This document shows positions 3,494-4,047 of a stretch of 40,443 nucleotides of DNA, piece after piece (within the stretch, counting starts at the first letter, position 1; each line of letters starts with the position of its first letter). The stretch is from the NCBI RefSeq assembly GCF_900103505.1, contig NZ_FNIA01000026.1, forward strand, positions 1-40,443, given 5' to 3'. Below the pieces are notes generated by a model. The model ran no database searches. It saw only the letters and a list, made by a program, of their open reading frames with translations, and was not told the origin of the DNA. This DNA is from Haloarchaeobius iranensis. GTDB taxonomy: Archaea; Halobacteriota; Halobacteria; Halobacteriales; Natrialbaceae. Both the position numbers and the translations under genes were made by a program.

Positions 3494-3718
3494 TTGGGCC
3501 GCAGAGTGAATGTGGAACCGGCTGGTAGCGGCGCAGTATCGCGATTCGTTGGGTATCTGTGATGTCCGGGGACGTGTGGCTCCCGGTGCCGAACCGACCA
3601 TGCAGCCGGGTTCTTCGGCCCCGGCAGTCTCGGTGTTGGGGCCCCCTTCGGGTGGAGTCACCTTCGGCCGGTGCCTGCATCGGCACGCGGTGCTCGTCGG
3701 GTGCGGCGGCGAGAGAAC

Positions 3719-3999
3719 TGCGCTGGACGGGAGTCGGGTCACGGTCGCGCCACCCCGTTTCGCTCCCCGACTCGAATCCCACGGCGATTTCAGCGCGACC
3801 AGACTCGTCGCTTCGCTCCTCGTCGTCGGTCACACAGAAATGCGCTGGCCGGGATTTGAACCCTGCCAGACGCGCTCGCTCACTTCGTTCGCTGTGCGCG
3901 ACTGGCAGGGTTCAAATCAGGGCGATTTTGGCATTTTGGCCGACTCGCTGCGCTCGTTGCCGTGAAATTACAAAAATGCGCTGGCTGGGATTTGAACCC
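3719..3999. repeat. Tandem array of tRNA-Gly 3'-end copies with internal palindromes
   Basis: The last 23 bases of the tRNA-Gly gene (3977-3999 on this strand) recur at 3841-3863 with a single mismatch. A more decayed copy starts at 3719 (TGCGCTGGACGGGA). The spacings are 122 and 136 bases. Each decayed copy is followed by a palindrome facing back to it. The best one pairs 3853-3869 with 3902-3918 perfectly over 17 bp (GATTTGAACCCTGCCAG), plus five more pairs after an A/A mismatch. The second unit also repeats a GGCGATTT block at 3783-3790 and 3921-3928. No copy but the last contains a full tRNA. Reading frames through this area are translated tRNA sequence, not genes. It looks like scars of repeated integration or duplication at a tRNA target. 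Confidence 0.7.
3971..3976 (-). terminator. T-run after tRNA-Gly
   Basis: TTTTTG directly follows the discriminator base of the tRNA on the minus strand. Confidence 0.5.
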
Positions 4000-4047
4000 A
4001 GGTTGTGACCATGGCAAGGTCACGTGATACCACTACACTACCAGCGC
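3977..4047 (-). tRNA. tRNA-Gly (anticodon GCC)
   Basis: A full cloverleaf of 71 bases folds on the minus strand. The acceptor stem is GCGCTGG/CCAGCGC with discriminator A, the anticodon stem is TGACC/GGTCA around loop TTGCCAT, and the T arm is CTGGG-TTCAAAT-CCCAG. The anticodon is GCC, reading GGC/GGU glycine codons. CCA is not encoded; the gene is followed by a run of five T, a usual archaeal terminator. Confidence 0.96.

Follow-up and report, generated by a model that had tools for sequence, protein, structure and literature searches.

A ladder of short hairpin modules behind tRNA-Gly(gcc) of Haloarchaeobius iranensis and its probable place in a family of mobile modules of Halobacteria

The edge of the T-loop is the classical crossover site of recombinases that target tRNA genes, and casposons use the tRNA 3' end as target. 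Elements with tyrosine recombinases of the archaeal SSV, pT26-2 and SNJ2 types are inserted in the 3' part of a tRNA gene, with duplication of the tRNA end and conservation of an intact tRNA, a crossover at the loop edge being plausible. In casposons and CRISPR adaptation (Cas1), a stretch of the target is duplicated by each insertion and the ladder grows mainly beside the target. The CTXphi attP(+) and integron attC sites are made up of two close inverted core sites within an imperfect stem that has a conserved irregularity and a variable tip, and tandem arrays are formed at a fixed site. For archaeal integrases, crossover in the T-loop is known and cleavage at the loop edges has been discussed (PMC8371274), and the haloarchaeal MITEs, PATEs and SMRs of Haloquadratum are short, palindrome-bearing, non-coding elements presumably moved in trans (PMC3119063).

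The window, that is, the whole stretch of 40,443 nucleotides of Haloarchaeobius iranensis that was analysed (contig NZ_FNIA01000026.1), contains behind a tRNA-Gly(gcc) gene a ladder that resembles each of these systems in part. The ladder probably consists of two units from a family of short hairpin modules of Halobacteria, about 100-140 bp long and mobile but non-autonomous, which would insert at the tRNA T-loop and duplicate the bases T54 to N73, so that the tRNA survives. The direct repeat of the tRNA 3' end that flanks the insert in integrative elements is present here as a copy of T54-N73 at the far end of each unit. However, in contrast to elements of the SSV, pT26-2 and SNJ2 types, the modules have 100-140 bp, without integrase or other genes, one core family is found at many tRNAs, and a second, inverted T-loop forms a hairpin. 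The likeness to CTXphi and integrons concerns only the architecture: no IntI or Xer is shown, the target of the modules is the tRNA T-arm, and neither IntI beside an attI site nor cassettes with attC boxes were found among the flanking genes examined and in the gene-less units. Unlike casposons and CRISPR arrays, the modules have no cas1 seen nearby and no short fixed spacer, and the arms of their hairpin copy the target; terminal inverted repeats are absent from the unit ends, the duplicated stretch being the tRNA end, of about 20 bp. MITEs, PATEs and SMRs are scattered, and are transposon-related or lack target duplication (PMC3119063), whereas the modules are located almost only behind tRNAs and carry tRNA copies, and the terminal inverted repeats of a known transposon with a short target duplication were not found in the units.

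Parts of the ladder behind tRNA-Gly(gcc)

The features of the ladder are the following, with the evidence for each one in brackets.

3977 to 4047, minus strand: tRNA-Gly(gcc), target gene of the ladder (ARAGORN; Rfam RF00005, 66.7 bits).
3977 to 3996, minus strand: T54-N73 of tRNA-Gly (X), the segment reproduced in the units (alignment; profile of identity over 90 loci).
3841 to 3976, minus strand: unit 1, 136 bp, with a new trailer, a spacer, a type B hairpin and a T54-N73 copy (repeats; type B relatives at other tRNAs).
3902 to 3918, minus strand: 5' arm of the hairpin in unit 1, containing the inverted T-loop, T' (inverted repeat; folding).
3870 to 3901, minus strand: apical part of the unit 1 hairpin, with AGCGAACGAAGTGAGCG, a palindrome common in haloarchaea, at 3877-3893 (folding).
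3853 to 3869, minus strand: 3' arm of the unit 1 hairpin, the side of the T-loop copy (inverted repeat).
3841 to 3860, minus strand: unit 1 copy of T54-N73, 19/20 (alignment).
3719 to 3840, minus strand: unit 2, older, 122 bp, with a trailer hairpin, a type A hairpin and a diverged T54-N73 copy (repeats; model match).
3719 to 3789, minus strand: type A hairpin of unit 2, core CGGGGAGCG...CGCGACCG (held-out match, model R1, 57.9 bits).
3719 to 3738, minus strand: unit 2 copy of T54-N73, 14/20, with the acceptor end CCAGCGCA intact (alignment).

A preliminary description of this DNA had reported tRNA-end copies with spacings of 122 and 136 bases, and these were recovered as one direct-repeat family at 3712, 3834 and 3970. 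It had given the near copy (3841-3863) as 22 of 23 bases of the tRNA 3' end, which is correct; over the 20 bases T54-N73 the identity is 19/20. The best match to T54-N73 in 3000 random Markov-1 sequences of equal composition, 600 nt each, was 15/20, so that chance is far from explaining the near copy, and the far copy (14/20) would be marginal when taken alone. The more diverged copy that had been proposed at 3719 is nevertheless certain, because its hairpin reaches 57.9 bits (E 8e-13, the E-values of the model being rough) in a search with a covariance model built without unit 2. The mismatch-free pairing of 17 bp between 3853-3869 and 3902-3918 was found to be exact as described, with a longer version of 28 nt at 89%; of the second inverted pair, GAGTCGGG is placed at 3731-3738 as indicated, but CCCGACTC is at 3766-3773, one base away from the position given. 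Folding, which had been recommended, yielded z = -6.4 for the DNA of 3835-3930 (minus strand) and z = -5.1 for the RNA of the entire ladder. In a comparison with Rfam, the tRNA alone passed the gathering score, the hairpin matches being far under threshold.

No tyrosine recombinase adjoins the units in the window, and units of 100-140 bp hold no gene. The flanking genes examined encode a putative RNA methyltransferase (PF02598) and proteins without Pfam match. Also noted in the window were a methenyltetrahydromethanopterin cyclohydrolase gene near the tRNA (840-1772, PF02289) and an unassigned 92-aa reading frame at 21-299 that resembles a transposase end, without Pfam support.

Occurrence and anatomy of the modules

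The search of other tRNA flanks in the same genome, also recommended in the preliminary description, returned matches of the ladder query, by which a feature local to tRNA-Gly was ruled out. From the 44 tRNA matches fetched, 43 tRNAs were analysed for downstream copies within 400 nt, a copy being defined as a match of 19 or more bases to the terminal 24 of the tRNA itself. Such a copy of the own 3' end was present behind 15 of the 43 tRNAs, mostly starting 73-112 nt past the gene (one at 195), and weaker copies were found at four further tRNAs; over half of the tRNAs carry no unit. Upstream of the same 43 tRNAs no copy attained 19/24, the best match being 16. Behind several tRNAs without ladder (Ala, Val, Arg and Tyr flanks) lie short reading frames of one kind (MSAESQFGIS..ELR..TTSREFRCDEC), which seem to be the leading gene in a family of large integrative elements.

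The distribution of the modules was analysed with a covariance model trained on 16 of these hairpins, in genomes compared at one per species. Matches were found in 130 of 145 Halobacteria genomes and in 54 of 59 genera, with 15-24 matches per genome in each of six congeneric genomes, and 57 of the 59 loci fetched by the model have a same-strand tRNA just upstream. In a phylum-wide sample, 27 of 33 members of Halobacteria gave matches and the genomes outside this class gave none. The hosts include Natrinema, Natronorubrum, Natronococcus, Halorientalis, Haladaptatus, Halorhabdus, Halorussus, Halogranum and Halolamina. Pattern scans of viral collections and a phage search revealed no unit, and no free or circular form was seen; a plasmid search with a consensus query gave nothing, and with unit 1 as query it returned two haloarchaeal plasmids, with both matches at tRNAs. 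No earlier description of the modules was found in the open-licence literature. The ladder is thus one case of a class-wide pattern, and the tRNA-end-derived repeat family that had been named as an option turns out, from the own-genome and class-wide searches, to be far larger than was guessed.

On the tRNA strand, the order of a unit after the tRNA is a new trailer, often with a hairpin of its own (HP1), the inverted T-loop (T'), the core hairpin and a copy that runs from T54 exactly to N73. T' comprises the inverted T-loop and about 3 bases of the T-stem. Cores of family A have the form CAGGGAG..(inner hairpin)..CGACCG and those of family B the form CCTGCCAG..CTGGC, and the unit lengths are tightly grouped at about 80-140 bp. 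In a profile of 90 loci from the own and related genomes, largely chosen with the model, so that the stem figures are somewhat circular and the own-genome counts are not, identity to the tRNA is 0.9-1.0 across T54-N73 and about 0.5 at the first trailer base; at the left boundary it is 0.98 at G53 and 0.77 at G52, then background. The identity of T' spans 10 bases (the T-loop plus three) and stops there, and inverted copies often reach into the trailer. A third kind of hairpin (type C), with arms made of the acceptor and the 3' T-stem without the T-loop, was observed at five loci, in units of 60-85 bp. An origin by reverse transcription of a tRNA fragment was discarded, as the copies have no CCA after N73.

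The arms of each hairpin match the tRNA that precedes it. Permutation gave an agreement of T' with the own tRNA of 0.93 at variable T-arm positions (shuffled mean 0.65, maximum 0.72), and an agreement of the acceptor copy with the own tRNA of 0.96 against 0.50 when shuffled. In 90 model matches from other genomes, 95% of the stem cells are paired (86.7% in shuffles) and two-sided changes number 118 (35 in shuffles), a count that leans towards the model, with which these matches were found; slid registers of the stem are all at or under about 50% paired, and compensatory change also occurs in the inner stem. This covariation shows that folding probably matters or that the arm is copied. Selection for the hairpins, suggested in the preliminary description, agrees with the covariation of the stem, which template correction between the arms could however produce too.

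Exchange between tRNAs and turnover among congeners

At the threshold used, the type B hairpin of unit 1 was not matched in any of the three closest congeners (G002, G003 and G004). Other genera of this family have relatives with 85-93% identity, which stand behind tRNAs for Asp, Arg(cct), Ser(cga), Val(cac) and Ile, and a further relative is located behind Lys(ttt) in the own genome; in each of these cases the arms fit the tRNA that precedes them. Weaker relatives were found behind Ala, Gly and Ser(gga). Taken together, 19 of the family's 29 genera have type B hairpins, and the tRNAs concerned are those for Gly, Lys, Asp, Arg, Ser, Val, Ile and Ala. These comparisons show that core families are common to different tRNAs and genera.

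In a plasmid of Haloarcula halophila, a type B hairpin of 69 nt interrupts a tRNA-Cys exactly at 53|54, without duplication, and the flanks, when joined, give a normal tRNA-Cys; this locates the insertion point by evidence independent of the duplication. Haloarchaeal megaplasmids of several families contain arrays of 14-22 tRNA genes, for example NZ_CP119561.1 237657-242714 (Haloarcula halophila), and in three of four megaplasmid records the annotation shows a TROVE-domain (Ro60-like) gene directly behind the tRNA array, the fourth record being nearly unannotated.

Behind this tRNA-Gly, the trailers differ between congeners whose neighbouring proteins are about 95-97% identical, which excludes the case, foreseen in the preliminary description, of the same array kept in all relatives. 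The tRNA-Ser(gga) site is empty in G002 and G003 and has a unit, followed by the same flank, in G004, and a systematic congener comparison revealed about ten tRNA loci at which the trailer of one species recurs in another exactly after the end of the copy. Whole units are thereby shown to have been gained or lost with exact junctions; an empty site would arise equally by gain or by loss through recombination between direct copies. Array segmentation placed the differences mostly on the tRNA-proximal side. The order is not strictly newest-first, as a short unit at tRNA-Arg(tct) is proximal in G004 and distal in G003. HP1 and core are mosaic between congeners at Lys(ctt) and Gly(gcc), which could mean that less than a full unit moves. 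Exact tandem arrays were found behind tRNA-Lys in G043 (four 111-bp units) and in Halorientalis regularis (three units, 108-bp spacing). The copies, called decayed in the preliminary description, cannot be regarded simply as remnants in decay: most are 95-100% identical to the tRNA, and some arrays are exact tandem copies. The 3' end of tRNA-Lys(ttt) varies among four congeners (AATTCCCATCC versus AAGTCCCTCCC) and the downstream copies vary in step, which suggests replacement of the tRNA together with its array, or conversion.

Proposed mechanism, alternative explanations and significance

Insertion would take place at the 53|54 bond, at the edge of the 7-nt T-loop, with T54-N73 either duplicated or carried in, so that the tRNA would be restored and the older trailer pushed downstream. 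Movement between tRNAs with different acceptor ends speaks for duplication of the target, as in insertion of the Cas1 type, over integration of a circle, because a circle bearing the acceptor end of another tRNA would damage the new host. The hairpin is probably the recombination site, in a folded single-strand form: by analogy, the T-loop and its stem are arranged as in a tyrosine-recombinase core, and the presence of a second T-loop in inverted orientation points to a site that acts as a folded single strand, as CTXphi attP and attC do. Either a requirement for folding or template correction by the adjacent copy may preserve the match of T'. The enzyme would act in trans, and candidates are a tyrosine recombinase that uses the folded hairpin, in the manner of integron attC or CTXphi attP, and an enzyme of the casposase/Cas1 type with staggered insertion.

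The hairpins could instead be host RNA structures of the primary transcript, with a role in tRNA 3' processing, in termination or as a decoy for tRNA-binding enzymes, kept by selection in arrays grown by slippage. Their position on the same strand at a short fixed distance behind the tRNA at nearly all loci, the strong covariation of the hairpin as folded strand and the presence of modules in most Halobacteria would agree with this function, which is yet considered unlikely: the acceptor strand is copied to N73 although the hairpin does not need it, the majority of tRNAs in the same genome lack a unit, the units behind orthologous tRNAs of congeners are unrelated or missing, and a type B relative disrupts tRNA-Cys.

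An origin as remnants of conventional large integrative elements, by repeated integrase insertion at the tRNA and subsequent internal deletion that leaves both ends, is quite unlikely. Large elements do use such tRNAs, the T-loop crossover is known for archaeal integrases (PMC8371274) and some ends bear inverted acceptor arms (type C). One element of about 14.4 kb occupies tRNA-Val(cac) of the own genome (C62:31300-47500); its right end carries a tyrosine recombinase (weak PF00589) but has no family A or B hairpin before its own tRNA copy; the right-hand copy is followed by an intact hairpin ladder and then by a stretch that resembles the left end of the element. Moreover, the unit lengths are tight (80-140 bp) and no large element ending in an A or B hairpin was seen, so the site fits but the uniform cores do not. 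Ladders as remnants of local large elements were rejected, as the tRNA-Val(cac) and tRNA-Arg(ccg) elements sit upstream of intact ladders. Repeated integration, as put forward in the preliminary description, is therefore retained as gain and loss of modules of about 100-140 bp, and not as a succession of large elements, those found being upstream of the ladders, which they push away. A purely local origin without any mobility, in which snap-back replication or template switching at the palindromic T-arm produces the units and unequal crossing over multiplies them in tandem, would account for the direct-inverted-direct layout, the exact tandem arrays and the extension of inverted copies into the trailer. 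Nevertheless, the loop cores are common to different tRNAs and genera and do not derive from the tRNA flank, and no local source is present for the hairpin at 53|54 of tRNA-Cys; this origin is very improbable, and snap-back as the sole cause was rejected because cores are shared across loci.

Beyond the interpretation of the ladder as two units of mobile hairpin modules, it is possible, and proposed here only tentatively, that these ORF-less modules constitute a new class of mobile DNA that enters any tRNA gene at 53|54, duplicates the 3' end of this gene, by which the host is spared, and copies the local T-loop into its own arm, one core family colonising many tRNAs and building integron-like or CRISPR-like ladders across Halobacteria. 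If the interpretation as mobile modules is right, a large share of the tRNA genes of many haloarchaeal genomes (at least a third here) would precede a mobile structure of fast turnover that standard annotation does not name, and the copies of tRNA ends can confuse the annotation of att sites, tRNAs and genomic islands. The modules would also be a natural system for the safe invasion of essential genes, for the retargeting of recombination sites between tRNAs and for the crowding of tRNA attachment hot spots, and would provide a testable link between folded-DNA recombination, as in integrons and CTXphi, and archaeal tRNA integration.
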